Origin: Pezizomycotina sp. ARF18
Lineage: Eukaryota; Ascomycota
DNA length: 64,000 nt
Assembly: GCA_002224055.1 (NCBI GenBank)
Contig: AZLU01000066.1
Coordinates: 55,712-119,711, forward strand
Direction: 5' to 3'
The stretch's first letter is position 1, and every line of letters begins with the position of its first letter. Positions 4,073 to 64,000 of the stretch are shown piece by piece. The notes beneath the pieces were generated by a model. That model saw only the letters and a list, made by a program, of their open reading frames with translations. It was not told where the DNA came from and searched no databases. Both the position numbers and the translations under genes were made by a program.

Positions 4073-5527
4073 TCATGCACCGAACTGGCGGCTATATTTT
4101 CCACGGCCCGAGGAGTTAGATGTAATGGTCCAGCGTTCGGGATTTCGAAATTTCTGTTCGCTATCCAGCAGCGCCTCTAACTTCAACCGCTCAGCCTGCT
4201 CTCTTTTGCGCTGTTCCTCCCGTAGCTTTTCCATGGAAGATTTCTCCGGATGACTTTCCTGTCTGGGAGAATGTTTCCTTCTTTCCTCCTCCTGGGGCTG
4301 CGGGATCTCCTGCGAGAACGATCGGGTGACCCCCGTCGCTTCGTTCTCGTCGGTGACGTTGAGGTTGAAGTAGATCGCCTGCTCCGGTCCCGGTGGCGAT
4401 CGTGATGCCGGCGGTGACGACGTGCCGGGATCTGCTTCGCTTTTCTGAACGTCGCGCTTCATCATGGTGTTTCTCTGGAGCCCGACGACTATGATTCGAC
4501 TCGTACGGCTGGAACCTCTTTCTGTCTTGAGGAATTGCTGCCTTGATATCTACGTTCGTTCTCAGCTTCATGATGCCTGCTACCACTTCTCCTTCGAGAT
4601 CTGTCGTCGTTGTCGTCGTTACACGTGGAGCGATGATCATGTTCGTCCACGCGTCTTCTCCTTGTCTCGAGGAGCCTTTGATCAACGCCAATCCCCATAT
4701 CTGCGTCTCTCTTCTTCTTTCTCTCGCAACATCCTCCCTCTGTTCTCTAAGCTTCTTTAGGCCAGATTTTATGGCGTTCAACGGATCATTATTCTCGCGA
4801 ACCCTAGTTTCTATCCTTTCCTCCCACTGCTTCTTCTTTTCTTCCTTCTCGCGCTCTGCTTGCGATACCTTGTCCACTGACGCATACCACGGGCGGAAGG
4901 TTCCGAAATCTTCATGGTGTACTGTGCTTCGTACGAGGCTTCTTCGCGAGCCTTATCAGCCATATATTCCACATTTTGTGATGATTTACATCTGGTAGTT
5001 CGCGGGCTGTCCTGCCGCGTCCTTCGGATTATCCAGTGTCGGAAGAGGTTGATATGTCCATCTGCTCCGACCAACGGTGCCTGAGCAGATTTGTTATACT
5101 TCGTAGTGCGCGCGACCCTCATATTTCCTTCAGGCGACCCAGGCGACGCTTTCCTACGCTCCCTCATTGGCTCCGACGGGAACTCGTCGCCATCATGATT
5201 GTCGTGGCTTGATCTGCTGTGAGCGGATGTTATCCCTTGCGCAGTTCCGCCAGCATCGATTTCTGCACTTCCTCCATTCTGTTGCTCCATTTGCTTCCTC
5301 AAGATCATCATGCGCCGTTCGGCGTCTACCTCCTGCATGCGTCGCTCTTCTTCCTCCTCTTTGAGCTTCGCCTCGTGTTCGTCCCGCCGAACGCGTTCCT
5401 GGTTTTTCACGTTGTACACGTGCCATGACTTGTGGTGTAGAATGTTCCTATATAAGGGAGTATTGAATATTAGTAGTCGTTATAGATGAAAATGACCCAG
5501 AAGCAGATATTGTACTTACAGTGGCAT
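4073..5527 (-). CDS. LENG1/CIR-N-type protein (putative spliceosome-associated factor)
   Basis: The N terminus reads MPLNILHHKSWHVYN and continues into RVRRDE and a Glu/Arg-rich helix. This is the CIR_N signature of leukocyte-receptor-cluster member 1 (LENG1) and CBF1-interacting co-repressors, which are nuclear and linked to the spliceosome. The start is well supported: the ATG at 5527 is followed after eight bases by a 72-nt intron (5448-5519, GTAAGT...TAG), and splicing restores MPL-NIL. Further on come a PWYAS motif, a basic RS-like middle and a C terminus EKLREEQRKREQAERLKLEA...RGKYSRQFGA, which matches the RRYNSQFN ending of LENG1. At least one frame change is seen near 4897, where one G missing from a short run restores ISGTFRPWY; more occur in the middle. 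The gene is divergent from SEC18 and shares about 450 nt of promoter. The family call is firm; the role is inferred from homologues. Confidence 0.85.
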
Positions 5528-5980
5528 CTTGCCTGTTTGTGATGTTGAAAGATTGCCGGAGGAAGATCGGAGGTGAGTTTGAAATGAATAGAGCCGGAGA
5601 TGTGGCTTGTGCTGTTGACGGATTAGGTAAGCACCGCCACGTACCAGCCTCATATAAGCTCCGAAGCTAAGCAAGTTTTAATGGATACGTTGTTGCGTAC
5701 CGTAACTTATCTCAAACATCTCCAACTTGTTATCATACGTACGCTTGTTGCTCTTCCCTCGAAATGGACATGGTGTCAAAGTTGTAACTTGCCAAAGCAA
5801 AATATAAAACCTTATAATACTTAAGCTGCTGTTCCTATACCAGCGGTTATTTCTATTCTCTCAAACATAAACCTCGAGGTCCTTTTGTATTACTGCAAGC
5901 TACTTCCCACGATAGTATCGTTCCAGTTCTTTGTTTCCTTTCCTTCCAGTTAAAAAGCTATCGTTCATAGGCAGGAAACC
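5528..5980. promoter_or_regulatory. Shared divergent promoter of the LENG1-like gene and SEC18
   Basis: The two start codons (5527 on minus, 5981 on plus) point away from each other across 453 nt, so both promoters must lie here or overlap. I see no canonical TATA box that can be assigned with confidence. A stretch resembling 5S rRNA lies inside and is listed separately. Confidence 0.55.
5636..5710 (+). ncRNA. Possible 5S rRNA-like fragment (degenerate)
   Basis: The string AGCTCCGAAGCTAAGCAAG (5658-5676) is nearly identical to the conserved core of fungal 5S rRNA (ATCTCCGAAGTTAAGCAAG), which holds the box A region of the internal promoter. ATGGATACGT a little downstream resembles the TTGGATGGGTGACC block but is poor. 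The 5' third does not resemble 5S rRNA. It could be a 5S relic, a 5S-derived SINE head, or chance. Confidence 0.3.
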
Positions 5981-8675
<2,695 letters not shown>

Positions 8676-9834
8676 GCCATCGACGATTAGTGGATTCGGT
8701 GGTGGATTACAGTGATTTTACTTTCTTTTTTTGGTTCTAATGTAAGAAGATATTCTTTTTTTCTTTCCCCTACAGAAATGCATGTATCACGTATAAAGCA
8801 AGAGAACCCGAGTATATGAATATAGAAGAGATTTGCAAAAAAAGCACTCTTTTTGCTTCTCATTGGTTTACCGTAGTTTTATTACTCCGCTGTCTTGCAT
8901 AGAGACGCGATGTTATATTTTTTTATTCATTCGTATCTCAACAGATAGCAGCAGTAATCGTCGATCATTGTTGTGACCAATCACCCCGGCCCCTCCGTGC
9001 TTGCGCCATGCAAAACAGCTTATCAATTACTGTATACGAACTGATCTGAAGTTATATAATTTCTTTCATCTGTGGTACAGCTGTCCCCGTGAGTAAAAAT
9101 GGGTCTTAGCCGGTTGCCGATTACTCTGCAGGTTCTTGGGGGGGGGGTGCGATATTCACAAAGCTGCAGCACAAACTGACACCTCCACTGTCCAACATCA
9201 AGAAGATATATTCTGTAAGGGGGAGTTGCTTGGAGAAAGCAAAAAGAGACAAATACTAACGGGGTAAATTGTTAATTTATCCCCTCTTATCGAAGCGGCG
9301 ATAAGGATTCTAAAACACCGAGAATGGAAAGCAGAGCAAAAATTAAAAGCGAAAATTGAAAAGAAATAAAAGACACAGGCCGATATTCATTTATCCTCGG
9401 AGTCACCGGGCGAATGAGGGTCACAAACTGCCTTTTCTTTCTTCAATCTTAGCCGAGTTCGAAGACGAGTTAAAAGTAGACCGCGATTGAATGATACTCA
9501 ATATAAATTGTCAGAGCTGAAATGATAATAAAACGAAATACCCACAAACGGAAATTTAGCATGAGGAAGTATGATTGGAATAAGTGGACTCGGCCTTCAA
9601 CTCGAGGGAAAGTACGCTCTGATAGGTTTAAACCAAGTAATACGGAGCTGGAAAATAAATACTAGAAACAAGAATGATAACAAAAGAGATTGCTATTTGA
9701 TGATATTCAACGCCAGGACAACATAACAATGAATATATGTGAAGAAAGGAGACCGATATTATTGAAAAGAAAAAAGAATGGGAAGGTAAACTTAAACATG
9801 TACAATAACCTTGCTAACCCTTAAAGCCATTATC
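8676..9834. other. Convergent 3' intergenic region between SEC18 and HYM1
   Basis: Both neighbours end here. No coding signal is seen. It holds two adjacent hairpin-forming stretches, GGGGTAAATTGTTAATTT followed by ATCCCC (about 9260-9283) and CTTATCG-AAGCGG-CGATAAG (about 9286-9305), and a G10 run near 9138. Transcript 3' ends of both genes are expected in this interval. Confidence 0.5.
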
Positions 9835-11463
9835 TCATATTGGTGTAGCTTGTCCGGGCATTTGCTCGATTTGCTTCATAAGGAATGCCTTTCATCGTTG
9901 AATTGATCGTCCTCTGAGATTGGAAGATATTAACTATTAGTATACTTTCGAAAACCTGCTCACCAAAATGATGGCGTTATCACGATATAGAGAAGAGTAA
10001 GGCAAGTGAAGCTATAACCCCACCTTTTCGATCTTCATGGAATTTCGGCAGAAAACGCAGCAGCTGATCCCTGTTTTTCAGCAGCAGCCCTTCAACAGTT
10101 TACTTTTCTTGGGTTGGCAACGAAGACCTTGAAGACGTGGAACGCTTCGTATTGGACGTTCTTCGACTTGTCTCGGAGGAGTTCATGCAGAGTTTCAGGT
10201 GCTCGGGCGAGTCGACGTATGCGGTCATGATATGTAGTTGGCCCTATCCAATAATATTTCGCCCAGAAGCTTGATAGACTGCCGCTTCGTTATGTAGTTC
10301 TCAGATATCAAGAGCGTGTTGTATTTGTCGAAAAACTATTATTAAAAGGATTCAAACACGATTTAGTTCCCCATGTATGCAAACGGCCAAAATAGTGGAG
10401 GTATCCTTGCATTGGGGCGCAGTTGTCCTTACAGATTCGTAATGTGTCTCGAGAAACTCTGCGACCATTGTTTTGTGGCGTGTTAAAAGATCCTATCGTA
10501 AAAGTAAAGAAAATATTAGAACTCGGAGGAGAATAAAACTCTGGAAAGGGCTAAAGCCCAAAGGAAAAAAAAAAAAAAACTGTTTTAGTCCTACTTTAAA
10601 GGTAGAAAACGCATCGCTAGAAACGTCAAATCTCCCGCCCTGGACGTAAGTAAAGAATAGCCAGAATTGTCGTCGTACAAGACCATTCTTGCTAAGCTTT
10701 CGTATTTGAAGGCCTCGCGTAGGATCTGGCCGCAGTTTGTAGCGATGTCCGACCTTTCATAACCTTGTACTAATATTATGAGGTGTCTGGCCTGGTATGT
10801 GTGAGGTAATTTACGCAAGGCTGTTGATTCATCACAACATGCCGCAGTAGCGCATTGAATATCGCAGTCGTATCTTTCTGGCCTTTATTAAAAACCGAAC
10901 GCGTGATTGTTAGGGAGCAATCCGTCTAGAATGTTCATCTGGGAGCATATAAGGAATACCTCGAAATCCAATCGTGGAAAAATTGATCGCCAGGACGGGT
11001 AATATGTCCGAATTATAGACCTCCTGTGCTACCAGGCCAACTTGTTCGGGAACAGGCTCGGTCTCTAGAGAAACAGCTGCGTTAGCTTTATTATTCAAGT
11101 TCTGGACTTGTTTTTCTATAGCTGTTCCCAGTTCTTCTCTTATCATTAGTGTTTGGTACGAACTCACCTGCATTTCCTTGCAGTGTTACCTTCATCTGAG
11201 CTAGGGTCCGCGAGAGTTCTTCTTGCGCCTATTTGCCTTGCTGTCAGCGCTATCACGGATAAACAGTGTGTGAGAATACAATTTTCCCTTTTACTACGCG
11301 ATGGCTACCTCATGTTGTGTAGACAAGACGTTGGAGGCAGAGGAACAGCTCAACGTACAGCTCTTTTCGACAATGGTTGGTCTAATTTCGTTACGTTCTC
11401 CCGCACGCTTCGTACAAGCTCCTGTGGCGACTTCTGTCGACCTCTGCCGAACAGGAATGACAT
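9835..11463 (-). CDS. hym1: Hym1/HymA/Mo25 scaffold protein
   Basis: Mo25 proteins are all-helical scaffolds that activate germinal-centre kinases upstream of NDR kinase in the RAM/MOR network, controlling polarity, conidiophore development and cell separation. The ATG at 11463 gives [20 protein letters not shown], the family start. Next come [130 protein letters not shown], and a C terminus [11 protein letters not shown]...[13 protein letters not shown] before the TGA at 9835. Several introns interrupt it, including one after QGNA (to about 11082) and one after DAFSTFK. A frame break near 10789 is repaired by one extra C in a run. It ends tail-to-tail with SEC18. Family identity is firm. Confidence 0.93.
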
Positions 11464-12690
11464 TGTGGTGTTATTGTTGTTGATGTGGTGAAGTTATGGA
11501 CTGTGGATTCGGTACGCTAGAATGATACTGTTCGAAGGACACTAGTTCCTGCGACAGCGAATCCAAGTTTTAGAAACTGGGACAAGAGCGGTCGTCACTT
11601 GTTGCTTGTCTATCGAGGATAGCCGTGAGCTTTCAGACTAAAGTTACTTCGTAATAATGCGGCCGAAGTTAAATTATCAAAGACCTTGGACGATTAGAAG
11701 TGGACGACGTGGAGGTGTGAAGGAGGGTTTGAATACTCGTTTCAGAGCTCAAAATTTTTGAGGGGAGCTTTATGTATAGGCAGCAGAGGAAATGTAGGAA
11801 ATGTCTCTTACGGCTTTGCTGTAGTTGCGTGCATTTAGTATTAGTACTTAAGTAGGTGATTGTTGTTTCCGCTATCGTTTTTTCCCCCCCAACAGGCCTG
11901 GCCAGTAAAATAAAAACCACCAGGAAAGCTTTAATAGCAAACATTCGAAAGCACAACTTCCTACGTTTTTTATTTGTACAATACGTCTGCTATCATTGAT
12001 TTTCTAGCTCGGAGCGCGAAAGGAAAATATTTATATAATTACCGATCAATAGCTTTCTGTCCGAGTTCAGCCAGCTGTTTCCACTTATGGCACCGGGAGT
12101 TCCCAGGAAAGAGGAATCTCTTGACGATAATATATTTATTTATGCTTGTCGTGTCAACTCTTGCGGCTCTGATTTGGAGTACTTGCCTCCATGCTATAAC
12201 CGAACTAGGGAGCTCTGCACGAGGAGCTTCACTCACCATTTCCTTGGGAGAATTTGATCTGGACGAATACTAGCGCAATCGTTCCATGTGTGAAAGATAT
12301 GTACGCCACAAATCCTCGCGTTTAGCGGTCAACCATCGACTGTCGGTAAGAAATGAAGCCTCGAGTTTAATAACCGGGCTGTTGCCTGTGGCAGTGTGGA
12401 GTTGCCTGATTTCTACCACTGCATCGGTACCCTGACCAAGTTTGCTTTATCCGTGTTAAAAGTTTTTTTTTTTCGCTGCCCTTCTTTTCAAAAGTGACCA
12501 CTTTTAGAAATCGTAATTTAAAAAAAAAAAATTCAAGGTGGTAGGTAGGTGCTAGAACCAATCAATGAAAAAATTGTATTGGTATAAGTTATAACTACTA
12601 CCTACTCTACAGAATGAAGAGAGAGCAAGCAGGAGAGAGAGAGAGAGAACAGGACTGCTAAGATATACTAATCGTGTGCTGAAGAGATGG
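11464..12690. other. Intergenic region upstream of HYM1
   Basis: This is the 5' flank of HYM1 and of the rightward gene beyond 12.7 kb. Open frames of up to about 100 codons on both strands near 11.7-12.3 kb carry no motif I recognise. A short GA microsatellite, (GA)n, lies near 12638-12652. No RNA gene is seen. Confidence 0.5.
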
Positions 12691-12691
12691 A

Positions 12692-12736: not shown

Positions 12737-12769
12737 AGGTTGCGTGCTAAATAGGCGTGCCCTGCAGCG

Positions 12770-12838: not shown

Positions 12839-13003
12839 CTTTTTTTTTTTTTTTTTGAAAAAAGTGGCCCAGAAAATTATTTAATCTTTCAACTTTCTCT
12901 CGCTCTCTACTCCTTTTTCAATTTTTGTTTTCAACAACCACCACTGGTTCGCGACAACAACAAACAGAGCAGCAACGGCGGCAGCAGCAATGCCCCTCCC
13001 CCC

Positions 13004-24144: not shown

Positions 24145-27100
24145 ATGTCGAACACCAAGATAGATCATGGATCTCAGGTCACATCGCCGCCGCCCTCTGC
24201 CACGGAGAAATTCTATCATCGCGATGGTCCTCGACGGCGACGTGAGCTGCTAATGACAACCGGCCCCATCAAAGCACCTCATCCCCCGTCGCTTCTCGCT
24301 TCTTCTCGCGCCTTGCAACATTCAACGTCTTTCGGGAAAAATAGTGTCCGCTCGAAAAAGCAGCCAACCCAGATAGCCCCAATTATGCACAACATCGATA
24401 GTTTTGAAAAACTTCGCATGGCAACTCAAGCGTATACCCACCTTGGGTCTTCAGGATATGGAACTACCACAAATTCCTCTTCCACCGCCACTCCTAGGTC
24501 AACAGTGTCGTCGCGGGCCAACAGTTCACCGTAGCCAGCGTTGGAAACAATGGAATGCTATATTTGAGGTAGGAGCTACCGCTCGATTGTTAAGATATTT
24601 TTACGTTTGAAAAGATGGACGGATTGTTAGAACTTCGGGGAAAACAGCAATGGAGATGGATGTGAAGAATATATTGGTGAAAAAATGAACTATATGCAAA
24701 GGATACAGCCGATCTCGATGTTGAATTATGAGGGAACAGACCGCCAGATTGCTAATCAACAAGAGGAAAAATCACAGACCTGTGACTAGACCACAGCCGG
24801 GACCATTCGTGATTCTTCCATCAACACCTCCGAAACTGCCGAAGATCAAGACGATGATCCAGATTCGAAGAAGGGAGACTCTTCTACGGATTCAAAGTCT
24901 ACAGAAGATCCCAAGACTCCTCCGGAAACCCCCGTCGCATTGCTGCCTCGCAGGAACCACCTTCGTCTCCGCCAATTCCCCGTATCAACCATTCCCGAGC
25001 ACGCTCATGGTCGACCATCGGAGAGATGTCTGCACCTCAAGATGTCCAACAGGGTTCAGTAAAAGTCACAATAGAAAAGCCTGAACCCCCTCGGCGGCCC
25101 CGAACTGCTGGCCCAAATCAATCCCATCCACATCTCGAGGTCACTATTCCTCACTATTCACTTGGATCTCCAGGCTTTTCTCCTTCAGGAACGCCGTATC
25201 TGTTTGGTTCCAGCCTTGCGGCGAACTCCATGCTCGCAACAAAGGGCCACCTCGGCTTGGTCCCAGACTACCGAATTCAATTGGGTCTTTCCCTCAGCCG
25301 ACAACAAGAGAGACGGGGGCTACCAATCCCAGCATCTGCATCCGCCTGCACCGACATCCAGGTTGTCACTCATGTCCACACCGCTAGCGTCAGCATTATA
25401 TCTCCGGTGGTCGCATCTGCTCCGATCATGATGTGTGGGCAACAACCTATCAGTCCGAACATCTATGATACGCTGTCTTTCCCTCCAGGATCAGATCACC
25501 CTTCAACAGTGAGACACGATCCACGCACGAACGACATAATCGCCGCTACGCCGTCAAGAATAATTGCTCAGATAACGTCCGCAACGTTCCTGGATTACCA
25601 ACTTCTCTCAGACTTCTTCCTTACGTTTCGTGCATTCTTGACGCCGAGCGACCTTGTATCTCACCTCCTAGTCCGCCTGCAGTGGGCAATCGACCGTGAT
25701 GATGACGTTGGCAAAGTGGTGAGAGTGCGGACTTTCGTGGCAATTAGGCATTGGCTACTCAATTATTTCGCCGATGATTTTGTGCCTTCATTAGACCTAA
25801 GAGAACAATTTTGCAACGCCTTGAACGAGCTTTCACACGATGTTCGGGGCAGACACAATACTAACCAGAGCGACATGAAAATCAAGGGGAGCTGAAGAAG
25901 TGTTGGAGGCGTACTTGCGCGCTTTATTGGGATGGGCACCCGGTGGCGGCTTAGATGTGGTCAATGCAGGAGCGGAAGTCGATATCATGCCGGAGGGTCG
26001 GCAGGAAGTAGAGACGATCCAAAAGTTCTTGCAGAGCTCTTCGACGAAGACTTCAAAGGCAAGAACGCGAAACCTGCGCTAAAGAAGAAACCCGAGAGGC
26101 TGGGAAAGGTCCCCATCGATAATATTACATCCGGCGCTACGGAACGTTTCATCCGGAAGTAATCAGCTCTGGGGAAAGTCAGCAGGATCGCCCAACAAGC
26201 GGAAGCAGAAGAAGGCAAAGAAGGCAAAGGAAAACGAGGCCTCTCGATCTCGCGGCAAGGGTAAAAATAGAGAAGACCCGAATGGAGGCAAGAGCTCCTC
26301 ACTGCCGAGCTTTAAATCGAAAGGACCGGAGGACCAGTACTATGAATCGGGTGAAAGGTCTGGAGAGGCGCGCATGCCAAATGGGCCTAGGGCTACGCCT
26401 CATAAGCGTAGCGGATCTTTCAGCGATGCGTTGCGCGACGATCGCCAGCCCTTGTCCATGAAGAAACAGACTACCAAGCCGATTCAATTATTCATCCCCT
26501 TTGCCGGCTCATTGGTCAGAGGGAACCTTATTCCTCCTACGCCTGCAGTTGTTGAGGTTATTGCTCCCTCGACGCCTACCGAGAAAGTTTTGCTTGACCT
26601 AACGTGCCAGCTCATGGCAGAGGCTACCTTCATCATCCACATCCCAAGATCGCGGCGCTGAGAGGGCCCGGTGTTAAAAAACTGCTAGGCAATATGAAGA
26701 GGGCGCTCAGTGGTCGCATAAATGCTATACAGCACGAGTCAAGCGACGAACAAGGTCCGCCGGAGGAACTCGCTAGGTACGTAGCCTCCGAAGGCAAGCA
26801 AGCGACCTTGACTGGCATTTTGAGTAGGAGTGGTTCGTACGGTCCACCGGTCCGGGGGGAGCGCGTACAAGGATCGACTTGCTCGGTGCTGGAGTTGTCG
26901 AGGCGTTCCATCGTGCCCTCGATGACCAGATTAAGGCCGCAAAGGTACAAAAAGACGCTATTGAGGCAGTGCGGAAAGCATACACGGAAAACCAAGGGAT
27001 CGCTATTCAACCTCTTGGGCCTACTGAGCCTCCTCTAGAGAGAGCGGCAGTACCTGATGATGCGGTTTCCGTTGATTCTGGCGAGTCTGACGGCGAAGGT

Positions 27101-29864
27101 GAAAAGAATACTGCTTTACGGCCTGCTCCAAAGGGAAAGTCTAGGCACCGAGCCACCCGAAGCAAAAGCGCAGATCTTACAATTGAGAGCGTGAATAGCA
27201 AACGCTATAAGAAAACTTCAGTTTCGGCAGAGTTGCAATGGAGGCCTGGGCGGAAAAGGGTGTCGTTACGCCTTCCCCCTCCGCGTCGCTCTCCTCTAGC
27301 GTACGAAAGAGTTTTTCGCCTTCCTACGATGCGAGCCCTTCGTCGGTGTTGAAACGTATGAGGAACCATCAAATAGTCGGTGATGTCTCTTCGCCCACCG
27401 CAAAGTCGTTCATGTCGTCCAACGAAGGCTCTTTGTTCTCGTATAACTCCTCTAAGCTTCTGGCAAGTTTCCGCTCACGTAGCTACGGCGAGAAGGCGAG
27501 ACGCCTAGTAGGCGGTGGAGATGCGCAGCTGGAAGAAGAAGAGACTATTTCGAGGAGGAAAATGATGAAATGAGCACTGCGCCGAGCTCGGCTCGACGGC
27601 CGCCCGGTGGAGATCCCTTCGATAGACCGCCAGCACGGATGTTGCGAAGGAGACCTGGTGGTGATCTAAAGACTGCAAATACCGTTGGTGATCTTGAGCC
27701 GGAGACTCGACCTCAGTCCGGTGTATCATTTGGAACATACCCGAGTCCGTAGTATCCGTGTGGCCGAAAGTGAACCATTCATTGTATTCCCAAACTCCGA
27801 TCACTGGCGTCTTGTCATTGGGCGCGGTAACTCTAGGAGCACCTGTGAAAGGTTTAAACAGAGGCAAGTCTCGTTTGCGGTATTCAACCACGAACAGATC
27901 TTCTGGCGCTGAGAGTTGCGCATCCGCACCGGAAACGTTCGAGGCTGGTGTCCTGAAACTTGCAGATTTACCTGACAACGCTAGCGAGGACGGAGCATCG
28001 AGGTTGCGCTTATTGAAGCTCGAGGGAACTTACAGGGAGAACGAACTTTGAGAGACCGATAGCGGATGGGCGACGGGCTAGTGACGGCATCTTATCAACT
28101 ACCACGACCACCAGAGATTTTGCAGACATGGACATTGTCGTCAAAGAGGAAGAGGTATCAGACTTGGAAGACGATGACGACGAGGACGAGTCATCCTCTT
28201 CGATTTCTGATGACGATGACAACTACTCCGATCTATAATGAGGGTTTCATGAGCGTAGCGGCAAACAACTTACTTGGCCTGCAGCAGAAAAAAAGCGGCG
28301 TCTGGTCCAGGTACCTCAGGAAAGCAGCGACCACGAGACGCCTCGCGCATCACGTAAACCTAAAAACGACAGCGAAGTTCGTGACCTGCCGTTGTCGTTT
28401 ATAAACACCAGAAATGAGTCAAATGAATTTATCCCCATTCTCGAGCGTGGCCAGAATGCGGACATGCTGTCGATACCCGATACGGCCGATATGGGTCACA
28501 GCTTCTATCAGCCTCCGGGACATCCAGAAGGACCTTCTGGGATCCCGCGAGGATGGATTAGCAGCAACGTCGACGGTAACATGAGCGACGTTTCGTCTGA
28601 ACTCTCGGTAGATCTCATGGCGAAACGAAAGCGTGCCAGCGTTTCGTCGTCTGTGCTACCGAACCTAACCCCTGGCGCAATTATGTCAAAGCTTGATATA
28701 CCGTCACATCCACTTCGCCACCCTCCCAGCCCGCCTCTTACACTTGAACAAGCCGTTTCGATGTCGCCTGCGTCGGATAGGGCCTGGCCGCTCAAGGACC
28801 GTTCTCGCACCCCGGAGGCCAAACTCGAGGTTTTGGAAACTTGCAGAAAACACCAAACAAACCAACCCCAAGGCAACCAAACGCCTTCGTAAGGCGGTTG
28901 ACTTCCGGCCCACGATTCCATGTCACGGCAATCCACTTCCGTTCATCCTTGCTTACGACTCTGAACTCCTCGCGAAGCAATTTACCCTGATCGAAAAGGA
29001 CGCATTAACTGAGATTGATTGGAAGGAACTCGTTGAGCTGCGCTGGAAACAGACGACCTCGCCGGTTACTGATTGGGTAGAGTCCTCAGGTCGCAGGAAT
29101 CTAGAGGCGTAGAAGTGGTCATCGCTCGCTTCAACTTGGTACGTAAATTAGAAGAATATCTCTCATCTGTTTCTTTGCCAGGGTTTACTGATTGTATTTT
29201 ATTTTATTTTTTTGGTTTTTAGATGGTTAAATGGGCTGCTTCAGAAATCGTCATGACCAATAGCATTGACGAGAGGGTAAGGACGATAACCAAGCTCATA
29301 CATATTGCTGCACACACGCGAGGCGACTACAAAATTTTGCGACCATGTATCAGATTACTATTGCTCTGCTCTCCGCCGATGTCGCTCGATTGCACAAAAC
29401 GTGGCAGCTCATAACTCATGCGAACATGCGTACGCTACGCGAACTCGAGGCTTTGGTCCAGCCAATGAGGAACTTCCACAATTTGCGCACGGAAATGGAG
29501 ACGGTCACGGGAGAGACGGTTGCATCCATTTGTTGGCAAGTCTAAATTTTTAAGGGTCCTTTACATGTATGTGTGTTTAAATATGTGGCTAATAGATGAA
29601 TACTCTAGGCTTGTATACTCATGACCTATCTACAACGCCCAACGCCCCGCGCAGCTGATCGGTACGCCGAACGGACCACCGCTGGTGAATTTCGAGCGCC
29701 ATCGGACGACCGCGACCATTGTTAACGCCTTCTACGCCTTATCGAAGCTTCTCAGAAGTACGATTTTGTGCCTGTGGATGGTGTCTGTGAGATGCCTCTG
29801 GATAGCCGCTCTGAAGGACGACGAGATCAATAAACTCAGCCTCGAACTCGAAGGCGATGTTTAA
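24145..29864 (+). CDS. LTE1: Lte1-type guanine nucleotide exchange factor
   Basis: Lte1 acts in budding yeast at mitotic exit through the Tem1/Ras-like GTPase circuit. Fungal homologues keep an N-terminal RasGEF_N region and a C-terminal CDC25-type catalytic domain. The chosen start gives MSNTKIDHGSQVTSPPPSAT, a disordered leader. RasGEF_N lies at about 25500-26000 (TPSRIIAQITSATFLDYQLL, SDFFLTFRAFLTPSDLVSH, FVAIRHWLLNYFADDFVP, LEAYLRALLGWAPGGGLD). The middle is long, Ser/Pro-rich and disordered, with GVKKLLGNMKRALSGR, AGVVEAFHRALDDQIK and MLRRRPGGDLKTANTVGDLE, blocks typical of fungal Lte1. The GEF domain begins near 28950 (LLAKQFTLIEKDALTEIDWK, ELVELRWKQ) and continues past an intron ending near 29220 with IVMTNSIDERVRTITKLIHI and LEALVQPMRNFHNLRTEMET. 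It ends NFERHRTTATIVNAFYAL...LKDDEINKLSLELEGDV. Many frame changes occur. About 5.7 kb matches the large family size. Confidence 0.9.
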
Positions 29865-31639: not shown

Positions 31640-34050
31640 TTACGTATCAACTTCCTTTATCCTCCCTTCGAGCTGCGGTGCGATCCCCTTACACCAGCTC
31701 GGCGCAAACTCCGGCCCCGGATTATCCTTCTCCGACTCGAGCCCCCTGTTAAGGGCCAACCTCTCCCACTTCCTGCCGACCATCTTCGCAATAATAGCTT
31801 TCTTCGTGCTCTCCTCCGTTTTCATCTCCGTGCCCGAATCTATCCCTTCGTCGCTGCTGTCTTCGGAGCTATCCTGCGCGTTCTCGTAGTCCTCTTGGAC
31901 TGAGCTGGGGAAAGAATGTTCGCCTTCTCGGTGTTCTATCGGTGACGAGGGTTCTTTTAGCTCGCCTTTTTGCGTCTGCACACGCTTCAGACTGTCGAAG
32001 CTGGACATGGCGTGCTTGCCGCGCTTCCAGCGGCCAATGACTTTTAGCGAGAGGAAGTAGGTGCGGAGAATTGTCTGTGATCAGGACGTCGTTATATGGT
32101 TAGTAAAGTAGTACGACTAAAGATTTATAGAATTCCTATGATGGGATTCTTGTAATAAAGGAGTAAAAGGAATAAGGTTCATACTGATATCAGGACACCA
32201 GCCTCATCGTCTATGATAGTTTCGCACCCCGCTTCCTCGGTCAAGCTAGTGAAGCCGTCTTTGCCCTAAATATATATGGTCAATATATGGTTTTCTCCAT
32301 CAGCAACGTAACGCAGAATCCAATATAACGCAATTGCTCTATATTTTACGGCTTACCTTCGCCATGTAACCGCGCGTAGAAAGAACGTATTGTTTCTCCA
32401 TTTCAAGTTCCATATGCCCCACTCTCACAGTGCGTATGCGAGAACCCGCCGGTGCTTTTTTGTTGTATTCAAAGTATATGTTTGAGACACAAGGGAACCG
32501 ACCTTTGAGAAATGATTTCAGTATCGATCAAATGGTATTCCTGTTCGTGAATGATTAGAATGCCTACCTTCAAGAGCTGGAACCTGGGAGACAGAGTTCT
32601 CAAGAGCGTCCCACAGCGCTTTACCGGTAACCTTGATAACCACCACGGGATCCGTAAAGGGAAAACAGTTCACTTCGGTTGATGTAAATTAGTTTTGCGC
32701 TTGACCAATAAAAAATATATCATCGATTAAATATTTGGATGCGTTCTGGTCCTTACTGATATCTTTCAAGCGGAAGATTCTGCCCGTAAATCTGGTCTCC
32801 TCTTATTGTGCCCGCCGCCATTAAGGCGCAATCGGCATCGTAGTAAAACCTCATCAGGTCGCAGACAAAGTTAGAAAGGTTCGCTTCGCGCGTGCGCACC
32901 GTCGTAAAACGGGCATCTAATGGCACCGAAGTAAAGCCAATAGGCTGCTCCATCTTTGACTTTAATCCGCGGTCAGATCTTCGATAAGCTTTGCCGTGCT
33001 TTCATCTTCAGGAACGTCCTTCGTGACGTCCCGTCGAGTAATCTCAAAATCCCACCCTTTCGAACCGTCCTTCTTCCTCCAGGCTTCGATGTAGCTGAGC
33101 TGCTGGAAGTCGCTGCCGCTCCTCAAGATGTGGCACCCGTTAACTATCTGGTGGTTATAATAGTGGTCGTGGCTCCAGTATTATATCGATGAGACCCGCG
33201 TCGGTAAGTCTCGCAAGCTTCTCGTCGTTCGGTTCACGCTGGTGCGCCAGGCAGATTATCATATCGCATTCCTCCCTCAGCGGTGGCAATAGCTCCATCG
33301 CCGTCTTCGAGGCTGACTTGTACACGATATCGGGAGCGATCGAGTTGACTGTCTCGAGCCACTCTCGTTCCGCGAGACCAATTATACCAAGCTTTAGCCC
33401 GTTCGATGTGTGAGGATAACGGTCTTCTTGCAACCGCCCATGGGCTCCATACCCAGAGCTGGATCAGTACGTTGCCGAGGAGCCAATGTTTATTCGTCAG
33501 TACCTCGATAAGTTCTAGTACAAAATAAATGGCCGCCGGGAAAGATTTACTGGTACATACTGGAAACTGGCACATCTTGGCGAGGTACTGGAAGTTCTGC
33601 GCCGAGAAATCAAAATCATGGTTGCCAGCTAAATGATTTCGCGGACAGTTAGAACAGGTTTTTACAGTCGAGCTTCATGATGAGGGTAGAGTTTTGGGAG
33701 AAAGTTAATAGCAATTAAGCTGCTTAGGCTGTGCAGTCTAGCTCCCTGTAGCTTACCGGTAGCTACGTCCGTTTTAATCGCGTTCAAGATCGGAACCATG
33801 TGCTTCCTTTGCTGACGGTCGATTCGAGGCTGGGGTTGAAAGCGTCGCCCGAGAAGAAGGTGAGCATGCCCGGCTGGCCCTTGAACTCGTCGCCGTCGCG
33901 GTAGTGGTTCACCAGGTTCACGAAGCGCGCGGCACCCCCGACGGGCTCCCTGTCGCCGGCCTCGATGTGGTAGACGTCATTGAAGTGGAGGCAGCGAAAC
34001 TCGGGAGTTTCGCCTTTCCTACCGGAGGAGTATGTTGTGCTCTCGGTCAT
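31640..34050 (-). CDS. Calcineurin-like 5'-nucleotidase / metallophosphatase (UshA-type)
   Basis: This is a two-domain metallophosphoesterase of the 5'-nucleotidase superfamily, with no signal peptide, so probably cytosolic; the substrate is inferred from the family. The ATG at 34050 gives MTESTTYSSGRKGETPEFRC, then the metal-binding LHFNDVYHIE and FFSGDAFNPSLESTVSKGS. Later come GIIGLAEREWLETVNSIAPD, YKSASKTAMELLPPLREECD, AHQREPNDEKLARLTDAGLI and GHDHYYNHQIVNGCHILRSG, the GHDH metal site. The C-terminal domain shows MEQPIGFTSVPLDARFTTVR, EANLSNFVCDLMRFYY and CALMAAGTIRGDQIYG. It ends with an acidic tail and GIAPQLEGRIKEVDT. Frame breaks before GHDH (two short G runs near 33182) and near 32958 (one T) are repaired by lengthening runs. 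Several short introns lie between 31990 and 32770. The family is certain. Confidence 0.92.
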
Positions 34051-34267
34051 TGTAGGTTTAGTATTGCTGGAAGCTGTAGGAGCAGTTGTAGGTGGTGATG
34101 GTTTTAAAGGATTAATGAGAGATTAGTTGAGACTTGAGAAATGTATGAGAAGGAGGGGGAGAGGATGGAGGGCAGACATTCGGCGTTGGTGTAGTGGTGG
34201 GTAGCATCGCCCTTGTTCTCCGCAGTAGCAGTAGCAGCATCACCAGCTATACTTAAAGTTTCGCTTA

Positions 34268-38417: not shown

Positions 38418-40343
<1,926 letters not shown>

Positions 40344-41599: not shown

Positions 41600-42795
41600 C
41601 TAGAGTAACGTGCTAATGCCATATACTAAAGCGCAAGCAAGAAGTACGCCTCCACCGACGGCCTTTGTCCAAACGTTATCCTCTTCCTCTGAAACTTTCA
41701 CCGGCCCGACAGGCTTCCGGTTAGTCTTGAGCACTACTTGCTCTTTCTTTAGCGCTCGTAGCCGCTTTGCTTCCTTCCTCTGCGGGCGGCGACGATACAG
41801 CGGGGTTCGTGACGGCGTTCATAGCGTCCATCCACTCTTTACTCGTAACGTTGACGCCGATGCTCCTCGCGAGCGCCAACAGGTCTTCTTCCAGCCTCAT
41901 ACCGTCGCCGTCGACTTCGACGTTCTGCACGTTTCCCAAAAAGTCCGTGATAAGGACATCCTTCAGGTCCCTCTTGAACAGGTCCGTTCTGACTCCGGGA
42001 GTAGAAGCGATCTTGTTGGGGTCGTAAGAACCGAAGAGGTCCGCCAGTGTCTTTTAGAGCTCTGATCCGGAACGTGGTTCTCCAAAAATTCGAGGTTGTA
42101 GTACGTATACCGGTCGATGACAGCTACGCCGACGTCGTTGTCCGCGTGGTGCGAGTACGACGACTCGTCGAGCTCCGACGAACCCGTCGCAATGATGTTC
42201 GGCGAATAGAATTTCGAGTACATCGTGTCGCCTGACAGGTGTCGATCATGAACAGCATCTCGTGGTACCGCTTCTTCTCCCACATCTGCTCGAAGGCGTC
42301 CGCTATATCAAACGCGCTGATCTCCTCCGCGTCCTGGAATTTCAAAAACTCATTCCCTCCGTGACCCGTCATGTAAATGAATATGTTACTCCGCTCGTCC
42401 GTGAGCAGGCGCTTGCTCCTCGGCGTGTCCTGTCGACGCGGTCGGTGAGCAGACGATGAAGTTTTCCACGGTGACCTCGTAGCCGCGGTAATCGACCTCG
42501 ATGTTGTCGCCGTACAGGTCTAGGCACGGTCGGCGTTGTTGTATACCGTTCCGGGGAAAGTGTTGCGGGGGTTGCAGGCGACGTCGTCGGCTAGCATGAG
42601 GATGATCTGCGAGTCCGGGATGCCCAGGCGCTTGACCGTCCGGTACATGGAGAGGACGTTGGCGAGGTGGCGGTAGTTGAACCAGAAGCGCGAGGTGCAG
42701 ACCAGGACGGCCCAATTGGAGGTGTGCTGGGCCGTCGCGCCTGATGCTGCCAGCAGCAGCGTCGAGGCCAATGAAAACAGGTGTGTTGGCTTCAT
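41600..42795 (-). CDS. GPI8: GPI-anchor transamidase catalytic subunit Gpi8
   Basis: Gpi8 (PIG-K) is the C13-family cysteine protease of the ER transamidase that cleaves the C-terminal signal of precursor proteins and attaches the GPI anchor. The start [20 protein letters not shown] is a signal peptide, followed by the invariant block [40 protein letters not shown] and [33 protein letters not shown] is textbook. The catalytic pair is visible: His in [16 protein letters not shown] and Cys in [10 protein letters not shown] near 42240. The C terminus [20 protein letters not shown] before the TAG at 41600 is the luminal-to-membrane anchor. Frame changes occur near 42380-42540, just after TCQA, and further on. 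It starts divergently from the twin-Cx9C gene. Confidence 0.95.
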
Positions 42796-43270
42796 GTTTG
42801 TGGCGAGGGGGGAGAGAGAGAAGTATCGGCGGAGGGGAAGTTGGTAAGGGCTACTGTATTACCCTCCGCTTGGGCCACAGAATAGCTCCGGAGTATTACG
42901 ATAGCGGAGTGAAAAGTTAAGAGTCGACGAAAACACCGATAATCCACTAAAATTATCCTAGGTTATCTGAGCTTCGAAGAGTAAAGCTCTCGAAGGTTGG
43001 TGACTGGGAGGGAATTGGAACGGTTGATCGGAAAATAGGGGGATGTTACTTTTGCTAGAATGGCATTTTCTCGTAGATTTGTAATCCTCATTTTACGGAA
43101 CAAAGAGCAATCAATGCTAATGGCGAACGAAAAAAGTTAATGGCACAAAATTTTTAACCGAAAAGAAAGCTCCATTCCCCCTTTTCCCACTCCAGCAAAA
43201 GACACACGCACACAACAAAAAAAAGGTTTCGAAAACAATTTTTCCCCCCCGTCACGTCGCCAACCTCACG
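42796..43270. promoter_or_regulatory. Shared divergent promoter of GPI8 and the twin-Cx9C gene
   Basis: Starts at 42795 (minus) and 43271 (plus) face outward across 475 nt. The middle (about 42860-43000) contains several short repeats of CGAAGAG/AGCTCTCGAAG type but no element I can name. Confidence 0.5.
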
Positions 43271-44127: not shown

Positions 44128-47100
44128 TTACAAATGTAATAACCTGAGCACGAATGTAGCGCCTTGCACGTCTTGCTCCTCTTCCACGATGAACTTATCG
44201 CTCTCCTTGGCGCTTTCGTCACCATAGGGTTCGAGCTTCCTCCGTAGGACCTTCAGGATGGCCTCCTCCTGTTCCTGGAACGCCTTCTCCAGCCCACACG
44301 TGTCCTCGAGGATCTTGTACTCCATCTTGATATCTTGCGTGGCAACCAAGCCAGCCTTCTTCCTCAGCTTCTGCACCCTGTTGACAATCTCCCTGGCTAG
44401 ACCTTCAGACTGGAGCTCTGGGTGGGCCTGGATGTCGACAAAGATCATAAGGTCACCCTCAGTGCTGGTCTCGTGCGTCTGAGTGAGCTCGCTTTCGGGA
44501 TCGAGAGCGCGAACAACCACCAGGTCTTCGTGCGTTAAAGCGATACCGTCGACGGTGATATTCTTCTCCGTGACGAATTTTCGGCAGTCGTCAGACGATA
44601 CATCGGGAAGGGCCTTTTGACCCTCACGGCGTCCTTCTTGAGTTTCTTGCCGAGGACTGGCCAGTCGGCAAGCAGGCTGTACTTGACGTCGTACTTATCC
44701 TCGTCGGAAGAGAGTACCAGCTCGCGGATATTTAGCTCTTCCAGAATGTACTGCTCAAGCGACTTGACGTCATCTAGGTATTCCTTGTCCGAATGCAGGA
44801 CGACAATGGTCATGAGCGGGTTCTTGAGACCAATGTTCCTCCTCTCGCGACAGCTGCGGCCGAGCTCGATGATCTTCTGCATCCTGGACACGCGCCGTTC
44901 AACCTCTTCGTCGAAAAGCTCCTCCCTGACCTCTGGGAAGCTGGTGAAGTGGATAGACCGTGCGTCCTCGGCCTGCATGCTCTTGGGGATGTGTGGGAGG
45001 AGCCTCTTGTAGATGGTCTCCGTGATGAAGGGGGCGAAGGGGCCATGCCTCGGATGATAGTGTAGAGAGTTTCGAAGAGGGAGTTCAAGGCGTGCAATGT
45101 ATCTTCCTTTCCAAGCTCGCCCTTGAGGCGCTTGCGGTTGAAGCGGATGTACCAGTTGGTCATGTTGTCAATCATGGTAAGGATACGCGGGACAACAGTA
45201 TACAGGCGGTAACCTGCCATCTCTTGGTTGACGTAGGCGAGGAAGCTGGAGCAACTTGCCAGGATCCACCTGTCCATGACGTTATGGCTGCCACCGCTCT
45301 CGGGGTTGAATTGAAAATCGATGCCCTCGACCTTTTTTAGCAATTCGGCCTGGAGCTCGAAGAACTTATAGCTGTTCCACAATGGCAGGATAACCCTTGC
45401 AACGACTTCCTTGACTCCTTCCTCCTTGAACTTTAGTGGTTCAGCTCGCACAACGGGCGAATTGATGAGGTACATTCTCAACGCATCCGATCCGTAGCGA
45501 TCCATGATGAGAGTCGGATCAGGGTAGTTCTTCAGACGCTTGGACATCTTCTTGCCGTCCGCCGCCAGAACGATACCGTTGACAATGCAGTTCTTGAAAG
45601 GAGCGACGCCGAAGAGGTGTGTACCAAGAACCACAAGAGTGTAAAACCAACCTCTGGTTTGATCTAGACCTTCAGCGATAAAGTCGGCGGGGAAGGACCT
45701 TTCCAGGTATCCTTCATTTCGAAGGGGTAATGCTTGCTAGCGTACGGCATACTTCCGGATTCGAACCAACAATCGAAAACTTCTGGGACCCTCCTCAGGA
45801 CGCCTTTGCCTTGCTTGGACGGGATCGTGATGTGGTCAATGCTTTCCCTGTGCAGGTCCGTGATGGGGCTAACACCGGATAGCTCCTCTAGCTCCTTCAC
45901 CGAGCCAATGCAAACCATCTCCTTGTAATCCTCGCTGACCCAGAGCGGGATCGGCGTACCCCAGTACCTGTTTCTAGAGATGTTCCAATCGCGGGCGTTG
46001 GCGATCCAACTTGCGAACCGCTTCTCCTTGACGAAACCTGGAACCCAATGAGAGTCCTCAATGTTCTTAAGCATTTGCGGGATGATGGTGTCGATCCTGA
46101 CGAACCAGGCCGGCATGGCTCGGTAGATGAGCGGCGTATCGGACCGCCAGCAGAATGGGTAGCTGTGCATCATGCTGCTCTCGACGACTAGGCGTCCCTT
46201 CTGCCTTAGGTATTCAGGATACCCTTATCGGCAGTCTTCACGTACTGGCCGGCAAAATCGGGGACTTCGGAAGTGAAGCAGCCCGTGTCGTCTACTGGGT
46301 TCGGAGGAAGCCTCTTCTCGTTGATGACGCCGTTGTCCATGGCGACCTTGTAATCATCCTCACCGAAAGCGGGGCTTGATGAACCAGTCCAACACCGCCT
46401 TCCTCGAAACGTAGGTAGCGTTGAGGACCCTGAAGCCGTAATCCTTGAATTCCTCGTAGAAGTAGTCGAACAGCGGCTCGTACCTCCATCCCAGCATGTC
46501 TTTACCCTTGATACGGTCGACAATCTTGAACTTGGCCTTCTTAGGATCTTTGTATAGCGTCTTCAAGCAAGATTCGAGCAGGATGTAGTTTCGCCCCGAA
46601 GCTTCGTCGTGGATTTTGATGTACTCGAAATCAGGGTGAGCGCAGATGGCCGTGTGCGATGGCAAGGTCCACGGCGTCGTCGTCCATGCGAGCAAGCTCG
46701 TAGTGGGATCATCCAGCAGAGGGAAATGCACAACCATGAAGGATCGCTCACGTCCTTGTAATTCTGATTCGCTTCGAAGTTGCTGAGCGGCGTAGTGCAC
46801 GCCGTCGAGTACGGCATTACTCTGAAGCCGCGGTAGACTTGATCCTTATCGTAGATCTGCTTGAAGACCCACAAACGCTCTCCATAAAGGTAGGATTCAA
46901 GGTCTTCCGAGGGATAAGTATAATTTCTTTTAGCATGTTGGATTCCAACTATTTCGCTCTTCGAAAAAAAAAAAAAAAAAAAGGTATAGAGCTTCAATTT
47001 CAAGAATGCATCTTAAAATACCTTGTAGTCATTCTTGAAGTCGATCCACCGACCTAATCTGTCAATGGTCTTCTCCCACTCCCCGGCGTACTCATGACAA

Positions 47101-47444
47101 TAGCTCGGCACTCCGCATTGTACTTGTCGATTCCCATCTTCATTACATCGTCCTTTCCTTGATCTCGAGCTTCTTGTCAATTTCGTGCTCGACGGGTAGG
47201 CCGTGGGTATCCCAGCCGAACGTCGCTCGACGTAGTGGCCCTTCATATGAGCGTACCGGGGAACGATGTCCTTGATGGTGCTGGCGAGCAAGTGCCGTAG
47301 TGGGGCAGGCCGTCGCAAACGGAGGTCCATCGTAGAATGTGAACGGTTTCCGACCTCCGACAGCTTCACTGAGGTTCTAAAGGCATCGATCTCCTTCCAG
47401 AAGGCGAGCACTCGCTCTTCCTCCTCTACGAAGTTTACTGACAT
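44128..47444 (-). CDS. ILS1: Cytosolic isoleucyl-tRNA synthetase
   Basis: This class I synthetase charges tRNA-Ile and is essential for cytosolic translation. The start [20 protein letters not shown] is the fungal Ils1 N terminus. The HIGH motif region [20 protein letters not shown] is present near 47290-47345 once two short runs (one G, one C) are lengthened. Then come [20 protein letters not shown] and [20 protein letters not shown]. An intron (46904-47021) with a 21-nt T run on the sense strand follows NDYK, and the next exon starts [10 protein letters not shown]. The editing domain is seen in [20 protein letters not shown]. The KMSKR loop reads [20 protein letters not shown] near 45540. 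The anticodon-binding region includes [20 protein letters not shown]. The C terminus ends [11 protein letters not shown]. Frame breaks are numerous. No mitochondrial leader is seen. Certain identification. Confidence 0.98.
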
Positions 47445-47743
47445 GGTGTTTTTTTTTTTTTTTTCCGTTGGTCTTTAGGCAGTAGCTATCTTTTTTTCGT
47501 GTCTTTGTTTTTTTCGGTAGGTAGCTGCGCAACTTGCACCTTTAGCTCAGTTTTTCTTTTTGATTTTTGATTTTTAATCTGAAAGAGAAAAAGAGAGTAC
47601 CACCTTCACCACGGCAGAAAGGAAACTTGGTATGATTTAAATAGAAGAAGAGAATGACAGGAAGGAAAAAGAGGGGATCTTTGAGTCAGCCGTTCAGCCC
47701 TTTATAACTTAAAACCCGTCTGAGTAACTACTGAGGATATATA

Positions 47744-55481: not shown

Positions 55482-55518
<37 letters not shown>

Positions 55519-60400: not shown

Positions 60401-61269
60401 CGTCCTTGCGATTTTGTCCGCGCTATAAATAGTTTAATTATAACGTTAAAATTTTTTAATTTTGCTTTTTATTCCAGTTCGATTCCAAGTAAGTCAAATT
60501 GTAGGTATCTGAAAATATATAGATATCCTCTTACATTTCATTCGCGGCACCGAATCTTCGGAAAAAGTCAGAGAGGTGGAACCGAACAGCAGCACTCGAT
60601 GACATTTGAAACTAGCGACGTCTGGCATGGAGGAGAAAAAGGAAAGGGTGGCACTTTTGAAATGGCGCGGGGTCCCTCTTAGGTGTTGGTTACCGTGGAT
60701 CAAGGACAGCGGTCGGCGTATTTGATCTCTTATTAGTGTCCTGCGACGCGGGACCCAGTGAGTGATTAAAAGATACCAGCGGCTTGTCAATAGTAGGGGA
60801 ACACTCCAGAGGTATTATTTTATTTTTAGTGCTGCCACGCTGCCCTCAAGGGTGCCTGGAAGATATAATCGAAGTCTGGACAGCTAATAGAAGTAAACAT
60901 CCTCTTTCTTTCCCTGGTACTTACTTTACTTACCTACTATCTCCTTTCCGACTGGATCCAATCCCTCTCTTAATTCTTTCTCCCAACTAACCCCTTTGCC
61001 CTCTTCGATACTGTGCCTTCCCCTTCTTTCTCTTTGCTGTTTGTTCCTTTCTTCCTCTCTTCCTCCTGCTGCTTTTTGTCACTTCCGCTTCTGCCGAGCC
61101 AAGAACTGTGGTGGTCAGGAATAGGAAAGGAATGGAGGGGGACCCCAAAGGGGAATAAAAAAATAATTACTAGTAATTAATTAACTACTTACTATTTACT
61201 CGCTTTGTATTCATCATCCTTTTTCCTTCTTCAACCACTTTGCTTACTTACACTCTCCTCTTACCAGTT

Positions 61270-61302
<33 letters not shown>

Positions 61303-61586
61303 CTTGTTAGATATTACTTACTCATCATCGCCATCGTCCAGAGACCTACGGTCGTGATTGCTTTTCTTGCGCTGAGAGATATCGATTTAATTACCTACCA
61401 AAGGCGAACGAACGCTCGTGCCTGCTTGGTTTCTCCTTAACTTTTTATTCGTAAACCCTTTCGTACAGACTTTAGTCTAGAGGGGCACGAAGTCTTGCTT
61501 TACTACCTTACTGCACTGTCGCTTTTTTTTTTTTTTTTTTTTTGGATATCATCAATCGTAGCCACCATTATCACCGACAAAACACA
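60401..61586. promoter_or_regulatory. Divergent intergenic region between the CAK-like kinase and SYP1
   Basis: The kinase reads left and SYP1 reads right from here. The plus strand is strongly pyrimidine-rich from about 60895 to 61080 and again before SYP1, with T31 at 61272-61302 and a T21-22 run near 61522-61543. Pyrimidine-rich tracts upstream of starts are typical of ascomycete promoters. No gene is recognised inside. Confidence 0.5.
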
Positions 61587-64000
61587 ATGGAGAGATCAAA
61601 TACCCTTCAGATAATTGTAGGTTTATTCTTTCTCTCTCTTTCCTTTTTCTATCACGCAAGATCTCTGGATTCTCTGCTGCTAGCTAGGGAAATATCAAAG
61701 TACTTATAAAAGAGCACAAAAAATAACGTTGTGCTTTTGCGAAAAACTAATCGTATGACGTTGGTAGAATTCGGTTCCTCCACAGCCGCCGTCAACATCC
61801 TTCGCGAACGGGTACGGAGAGCGCAAGTTTTAAACAACGAGATCGCAGAATGGCTCCAAGTTAGTATATCTTGTATTAAAAAAAAAAAAATAAAAAAAAA
61901 ATAAAACTATTCACAAATTTCCTTTCGTCGCCATTAGTTTCGCAAGGGCTTGTAGGTCACAGGATGCTAACCCAAACTTCAGGAGAGAAGGCGGGTCGAA
62001 GAGGCCTACATTTGGGTCTGCAAAAGCTCGTAAAGAGACCAACGCCGAACGACGCGTCTGAGTTTGGGTACGCCCTCAAGCACTTTCCCTTCCTCTGTTT
62101 TACCCTATACACATTTCCCACAGAAGTCGCGTCATATAGACTGGAATACTTACGCTCCTCTTTTTTTTTTTTTTTTTTTTTTTCCTCTCTCAGAGCATTT
62201 TTCGGCCCCTGGCAGCGAATCGTCAATGCAACGGTCTCATTGGCCGGTGCGCATCAAGTCTTCAGCCAAAAACTGGAAGCCGAAGTGGAGCGACCAATTC
62301 ACGAGTTTGCGACATCGAACCAAGACTGGGCCGGCCTGAAGACTATGGAAGGAACCTAGGACATATGGCGAAGGCTATCGACACCGCCGAAGAGAAATCG
62401 GAGAAACTTAAGAAGAAAGGGAAAAAAGCAGATGCCAGCAGGGTTGCAGAGGCGGCGTCAGCGGTACAAAACGCCATCGGAGAGTGGGAAAGCCAGGCGC
62501 CGTTCATTTTCGAAAAGCTTCAGGCATGCGACGAACAGCGCATAACTAGTCTTCGGAATCCCTGACGAGACTGCAGACTCTCGAGTTAGATCAATGGACC
62601 AGGTACGCGGGATTATGGAGCAGACTGTACAAGCCCTCTTGGACGTCAATACATCCGACGAATTCGACAGTTTCGCTCAAAGGTGTATGGTGCGCCGGTA
62701 GTGCCGGCACAGGCGCTACAATCAAGGGAAACAAAATGCACCGTTTGACGCATAGACCGACAACCGGCGGCGGTTCGGCTGCTCCGTCCATTGTTACGGA
62801 TGATACGGGTAGTGTCCAATCTTCCAATTCCGGTGAAAAGGGTAAACATTCAGCGTACAGACAATTTACTCTGAGACAGACATCTCTAACCTCTTTTCTT
62901 CTTTGGTTTCTCATCTCTAGGCAGCCATGGAGGTCTAGGTTCGAACTTGAGGAGGCTTGGAACCGTTTTGAAGGGTGGTAGAAGCAACAGGAACAGCACT
63001 ATCTTACCCTATTCGTCAAGTCGATTACTTTAGATCGGGCCTCGAACGACCGGCTTGGATTGGCAGATCTTCGGACATGGCGGAGTATCGCCTAGCGCCT
63101 CTGCGAGCCATTTGCCTTCAACTTCTTTAACTGTCCCTTCGGAATCGGACGCAGCGAAACATAAGTCAACATCTGAAGATACCCCAGTTTCGTCACCTTT
63201 AGTCGCAAGTATGCGTCTCCAATAACTGCAAACAAACCACAATCTCCATTACATTTGGATGGTCCATCTGAAGAGGCAAGTCGTTTTTTTTTTATCTCTC
63301 TTCCTCGTTCATTAGGCCGCCAATGTGCGCAGATGTATTTGAATGCTAACTTGTTTGTTTTAGCCGACGAAGGACTCAGAAGGATACTCGATACCTCCGC
63401 CCAAGAAAGACCTCGGAGACCCTATATCTGAAGAAGAGGCTGCCGCAGCTAGGTAAGGGTTATCGGTTTTTAATCTTCTAGATAATTTTCCATTTGGGAT
63501 CTTCTACATTGAAATGCAGTGGCGAGCAAATGTTTAGAGTCGAAATAAAGAGCGAGACTATTCAAGAAGAGGAAGAAGAAGCAGAAGCTGCCTTGTCCAA
63601 TGTGGCAAATTACGTTGCGATTGGTGAGTACTATTACGTGATAAGATTTGCATTCATGACTTAACTTCTAACAATATCCCTGCTTGCTACAGAACCAGCC
63701 GGGATCTCAGAATACCGCAAGAGAGTTCGTGGAAGAAGAGATAATCGTAACACGATATACGAGACAGCGGAAACAGTTCCAGACGTCGTAAGTGCCTTTG
63801 GCAACGGTGCTGAGAACGGCAGCGGTAGCGCAAGCCTCTCTCCATCGGCTATTCCTCCGCCTTCGAGTAGCGCTAGCAATGGCACGGGATCTCCATTTTA
63901 CCACAGGCAAATGTAATAACGCCTCCACCACCCTCCATCAGCGATGAGGATTGATCCAGCAGCTCAAGTCCCCATTGCTGCTTCCTCCTTGAATATGTCC
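61587..64000 (+). CDS. SYP1: Syp1 muniscin, F-BAR endocytic adaptor (5' part, runs off the window)
   Basis: Syp1 is an early endocytic-site adaptor and septin regulator with an N-terminal F-BAR and a C-terminal mu-homology domain. After a small first exon (ATG at 61587, donor near 61616) the F-BAR reads AVNILRERVRRAQVLNNEIA and EWLQ, then across an intron ERRRVEEAY and LQKLVKRPTPNDASEFG. The next intron is 62068-62193, with a T23 tract just before its AG. FGPWQRIVNATVSLAGAHQV, FSQKLEAEVERPIHEFATSN, AVQNAIGEWESQAPFIFEKL and QACDEQR follow, all typical of the family. The linker contains PPKKDLGDPISEEEAAAA, MFRVEIKSETIQEEEEEAEA, ALSNVANYVA and RVRGRRDNRNTIYET, matching the conserved region just before the muHD. 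The muHD itself lies beyond 64000. Frame changes occur near 62350, 62560 and 62640. Confidence 0.9.

Follow-up and report, generated by a model that had tools for sequence, protein, structure and literature searches.

Frame breaks in the genes of the window

The window analysed here is a 64,000-nucleotide stretch of the draft genome assembly of the ascomycete Pezizomycotina sp. ARF18, corresponding to positions 55712-119711 of contig C66 (AZLU01000066.1). It carries a series of conserved eukaryotic genes, among them those for the ATPase SEC18, the MO25 protein HYM1, the GPI-anchor transamidase GPI8 and the cytosolic isoleucyl-tRNA synthetase ILS1 (IleRS), and the reading frames of all four are interrupted at many points. 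The extent and the origin of these interruptions are the subject of this report.

Breaks were located with a purpose-written protein-to-DNA aligner in which codon gaps, penalised frameshifts and GT/GC-AG introns of at least 40 bases are permitted. Solved relatives of the genes (9cru, 1upk, 9ub7 and 8wnd among them) served as references, together with typed actin, EF-1alpha and histone sequences. Genes were selected for alignment by their conservation, and two of the eight CCT-like loci were aligned. When run on 36,991 codons of simulated genes that were intact, free of introns and similarly diverged, the aligner placed 2 breaks, and in eight reference-aligned genes, where it also placed 25 introns of 63-456 bases, the break count fell from 61 to 48 as the frameshift penalty was raised from 10 to 30.

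On the forward strand, SEC18 (the NSF ATPase, 5971..8737) shows 14 breaks in 545 aligned codons, with 2 introns, in an alignment to Sec18 (9cru) that covers part of the gene. The remaining three aligned genes lie on the reverse strand: HYM1/MO25 (10095..11493) has 5 breaks in 276 codons and 5 introns against 1upk, GPI8 (41724..42858) has 5 breaks in 266 codons and no intron against 9ub7, and ILS1 (44131..47474) has 13 breaks in 880 codons and 1 intron against 8wnd. Pfam profiles give a similar picture for some of them, with Mo25 matched in three frames and the three IleRS domains of ILS1 likewise spread over three frames. SEC18 and GPI8 are broken by alignment although their Pfam matches (AAA and Peptidase_C13) stay in one frame. 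The matches to Pkinase, MAD, SH3, Cir_N and RasGEF_N are also confined to one frame each, and several of these single-frame matches cover only part of the profile.

Further genes of the window were followed through Pfam and open reading frames. In a Ras guanine-nucleotide exchange factor gene on the forward strand (25536..29509), which carries RasGEF_N and RasGEF, the latter domain is distributed over three frames at 28969-29509 (converted from residue ranges), and one of its two frame changes could be an intron. The 5'-nucleotidase gene (32521..34122, reverse strand) consists of stop-free pieces, and the frame change between its two 5_nucleotid_C pieces could also be an intron. A PRMT3-like arginine methyltransferase gene (38454..38952, reverse strand) has its PRMT_C domain in three frames within about 166 codons; these frames abut and therefore leave no room for an intron. 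The LENG1-like gene (4194..5479, reverse strand) has a Cir_N domain at about 5318-5428 (E 2.8e-5), and stop-free frames overlap at 4897, which is compatible with a break there without proving one.

A first-pass annotation made from the sequence alone had reported that nearly all conserved genes of the window were split, and had listed eleven breaks. Alignment of ILS1, SEC18, GPI8 and HYM1, together with Pfam, bears out broken frames in conserved genes of the window, and places a break no more than 9 bases from six of the eleven coordinates (47293, 47305, 7356, 7427, 7440 and 10789). Five coordinates (6309, 6336, two at 33182, and 32958) fall outside the reference alignments, as does 4897; open frames overlap there or nearby, which fits breaks at these five sites but is no proof of them. 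The number of breaks had been underestimated, as 8 were listed in ILS1, SEC18 and HYM1 and 32 were found here.

Breaks across nuclear contigs and in 5S rRNA genes

The frame breaks are not confined to the window. All 12 aligned genes are broken, with 69 breaks in 4,065 codons on seven contigs, or one per 177 coding bases. Elsewhere on C66, the genes for histones H4 and H3 contain 3 breaks in 99 and 5 in 128 aligned codons, respectively; on other contigs, breaks were found in actin (4 in 360 codons, C382), EF-1alpha (9 in 438, C25), CCT3 (2 in 432, C139), CCT4 (4 in 430, C24), a second H4 gene (2 in 93, C80) and an H3-like gene (3 in 118, C32). Break rates do not differ significantly among the 12 genes (p 0.21). 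At 58 of the 69 sites the frame is one base short, at 6 it is two short, at 3 two long and at 2 one long. None of the eight aligned paths contains an in-frame stop, and identity to the references is kept at 54-98%. The aligned part of actin matches a typed filamentous-ascomycete actin at 98% identity and is free of in-frame stops, which indicates that the gene is under full constraint, yet it has 4 breaks. An actin of this type, the presence of introns and a mitochondrial contig indicate a filamentous fungus, perhaps from an early-branching ascomycete lineage. The top-scoring matches to actin and EF-1alpha in the assembly are the broken genes themselves, and the best candidates scored include no second copy of IleRS or GPI8 apart from a remote IleRS-like match on C324; by this comparison ILS1 lacks a second cytosolic-type copy and GPI8 appears as a single copy. 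The H3-like gene (L095, C32:235200-236200), which we take to be possibly a centromeric H3 variant, is 80% identical to H3 over its aligned part and diverges in its C-terminal half.

The relation of the breaks to runs of identical bases was examined at codon level for 51 one-base-short sites in eight genes. Nine of these sites are explained by a shortened run only, 23 can be read either way and 19 are better explained by a change outside a run. In the subset of 32 sites with 6 or more of the 8 flanking residues identical to the reference, the three classes hold 7, 18 and 7 sites; an estimated fraction of 0.74 (0.47-0.94) lies in runs, against 0.43 expected by chance, a significant excess (likelihood ratio 5.2). 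The test was run in three versions, of which the first two were not significant and the third was significant at the conserved sites only. Many losses strike runs no longer than two or three bases, and a number of sites have no run at all. The earlier statement that every break reflects a run lacking a single base is thus too strong, with regard both to direction (58 of 69 breaks are one base short) and to position (19 of 51 sites are better explained by a change outside a run). No shared motif is apparent by eye at the break sites, where no formal motif search was made, and the sequence contexts look dissimilar.

The genes for 5S ribosomal RNA (rRNA) extend the observation to untranslated sequence. 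A search gave 18 matches, seven of which belong to one sequence type and were counted, the other 11 being dropped for substitutions or truncation. Among these seven near-identical copies, three are identical over 119 bases and the other four are short by 2, 1, 3 and 1 bases. All seven missing bases lie inside runs of two to four, no copy has gained a base, and once the runs are collapsed six copies become identical and two substitutions set the seventh apart. Since about 39% of 5S bases lie in runs, seven of seven would be expected by chance with a probability of 0.0015. The dropped matches contain more losses, including one outside a run (L078), and one apparent gain (L079). The 5S genes as a whole (L069-L086) are dispersed over at least 10 contigs and comprise at least two sequence types; the truncated L083, L085 and L086 share another 3' end.

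Origin of the breaks

The reading-frame breaks described here are an artefact, as the first-pass annotation had correctly diagnosed. Almost certainly they stem from consensus error in a draft assembly built from error-prone, probably long reads without base-level correction: the same kind of break recurs on several contigs in genes that must work and also in untranslated 5S rRNA genes. The sizes of the contigs (the assembly comprises 46,361,250 bases in 408 contigs, and the longest among the loci fetched measure 1.12, 0.86 and 0.76 Mb) and the error spectrum point to a long-read platform and to missing polishing. The rate and the predominant direction of the errors, their spread over seven contigs, their presence in untranslated RNA genes and their over-representation in runs, both at conserved coding sites and in the 5S genes, are direct observations. 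In the process we propose, base calling and consensus building would drop about one nuclear base in every 100-250, would do so inside runs of identical bases more often than expected by chance, and would occasionally add a base. Each such insertion or deletion (indel) would shift the frame, and several breaks would accumulate in a coding region of the typical length of 1.4 kb.

A comparison with the mitochondrial contig (C50, 231,088 bases), which holds 33 of the 60 transfer RNA (tRNA) matches and pieces of cox1, also speaks for consensus error. In 59 kb of this contig, read with code 4, stop-free frames extend over 505, 383, 311, 294, 263 and 258 codons; nad1 keeps a single frame for 236 codons and cox1 does so for its final 91, and each of several LAGLIDADG domain pairs lies in one frame. 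On L062, L063 and L064, LAGLIDADG matches also occur in a second frame, which may reflect separate intron open reading frames or breaks. At the nuclear break rate, an unbroken frame of 505 codons would have a probability of 0.0002, but this frame was selected as one of the longest. The contrast between a mitochondrial coding sequence that looks largely intact and the broken nuclear genes is suggestive. Mitochondrial DNA is usually covered more deeply, which would fit a consensus error limited by depth, and read depth is the probable reason for the cleaner contig.

A comparable case is found in the literature. In Drechmeria coniospora, a fungus assembled from nanopore reads only, fewer than one-sixth of 305 conserved genes were initially full length and the errors were mostly homopolymer indels (PMC7500977). 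The present assembly resembles that long-read-only assembly before polishing in that conserved genes are broken throughout by small indels; it differs in that losses make up 58 of 69 breaks, many of them in short runs and some at sites without a run, whereas polishing there added more gains. Homopolymer indels in nanopore consensus sequences have likewise been linked to frameshift errors in gene calling, in a study that concerns bacteria and a newer chemistry (PMC9262707).

Other explanations would make the breaks a property of the organism. Many genes also look broken in DNA in Euplotes, through programmed frameshifting, and in Physarum mitochondria, through insertional editing, and site rules are followed in both. 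In the present genome, unlike in these systems, near-identical 5S genes differ from one another and an untranslated RNA is affected. Programmed ribosomal frameshifting throughout the genome, with the ribosome slipping at each break to restore the frame, would agree with the single direction of 58 of the 69 breaks. Its effects should be confined to translated sequence; the 5S losses cannot be caused by it, because 5S RNA is untranslated. Mixed directions (with two one-base gains and six two-base losses), the presence of multiple breaks in a gene (as many as 14) and the lack of a site motif visible by eye point the same way, and we regard this explanation as vanishingly improbable. Insertional RNA editing or transcriptional slippage, by which bases truly absent from the DNA would be regained in transcripts, survives the 5S comparison better, since 5S RNA is transcribed, and losses beside identical bases would suit slippage. 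Near-identical 5S copies nevertheless lack different bases, and three of the seven lack none; the runs that remain are short, between one base and a few, and gains also occur. Any recoding or editing would have to cover 12 of 12 examined genes as well as 5S RNA, in both directions and at sites that differ between near-identical copies, which makes editing or slippage highly improbable. There is a similarly slim chance that a few of the 69 breaks are genuine, for example as a conserved programmed shift in one gene, or that editing or slippage acts genome-wide, 5S RNA included.

Broken frames are also typical of pseudogenes, and a decaying genome could hold functional copies elsewhere. The absence of a close second copy of IleRS or GPI8 among the candidates scored, the broken state of the top-scoring actin and EF-1alpha matches, and the stop-free paths with their retained identity (98% in actin), which show no loss of constraint, leave true pseudogenes with practically no probability. 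Ordinary introns mistaken for breaks would be in keeping with the 25 introns placed in eight genes and could account for some of the Pfam frame changes, such as those in 5_nucleotid_C and RasGEF. The aligner already models introns, however, so that the 69 breaks are what remains after these have been placed, and the PRMT_C frames abut; introns are very unlikely to explain the breaks.

Several observations weigh against consensus error or against parts of this explanation. Over all 51 sites, the in-run fraction of 0.53 (0.31-0.75) does not significantly exceed the 0.43 of random deletions, and the window retains A/T runs as long as 36 bases, although a process that shortens runs would not be expected to favour them. 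The genes on C66 are worse affected than those elsewhere (one break per 146 versus 234 bases; p 0.04 in a post hoc contrast). The mitochondrial comparison rests on selected long frames, the mitochondrial intron open reading frame L063 also changes frame, and the nuclear window itself has, among those listed, stop-free stretches of 345 and 308 codons. In the Drechmeria report, the errors left after polishing were more often gains, whereas losses dominate here, and as to platform, PacBio-only assemblies were described as free of the problem (PMC7500977).

Consensus error has consequences for the use of this assembly. Until accurate reads have been used to correct it, calls of genes, pseudogenes or recoding are unsafe; with a break for every 177 coding bases, few nuclear genes beyond some hundred bases would be intact, and frame-based findings in this genome deserve a matching discount.

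Organelle-type contigs and other repeated sequences

The mitochondrial contig C50 (loci L032-L035, L037, L038, L042-L046, L050-L053, L055-L066 and L089-L091) has about 26% G+C in the part seen and many intron open reading frames. Its cox1 pieces extend from 136,069 (or 91,811) to 206,518, which would give the gene a length of 70 kb or more. The first cox1 exon occurs twice, in L066 (C50:91811-91969) and L063 (C50:136069-136233), each time fused in frame to an intron endonuclease open reading frame. Among the stretches compared, the contig ends show no overlap beyond chance matches.

Contig C257 (56,537 bases, 29% G+C in the part considered) carries mitochondrial-type tRNAs and a self-repeat at a distance of 37,322 bases, the two copies of which (L087, 7600-10100; L088, 44900-47400) are identical at 2,479 of 2,479 positions. 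It may perhaps be a circular mitochondrial molecule or a plasmid that was assembled one and a half times. As a gauge of error the repeat was set aside: the nuclear rate predicts about 28 differences between independent copies and none was seen, but both copies may derive from the same reads and are for this reason not used as evidence. Transposon copies were equally unsuitable, as the whole genome gave only two matches to PF00078 (E <= 1e-10), both on the mitochondrial contig; nuclear retroelements, to judge by this profile, seem scarce or too broken to match. Nuclear tRNAs, among which two tRNA-Ser copies are identical, proved uninformative, because the tRNA list is biased towards high-scoring genes.

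The homopolymer spectrum of the window was not diagnostic either, in that A/T runs of 5-8 bases are rarer than under a third-order Markov model and nearer to or above the first-order expectation. Runs of at least 10 bases are commoner than under all three Markov models, and homopolymers of A or T between 10 and 36 bases in length lie far above the expectation of orders 1 to 3.

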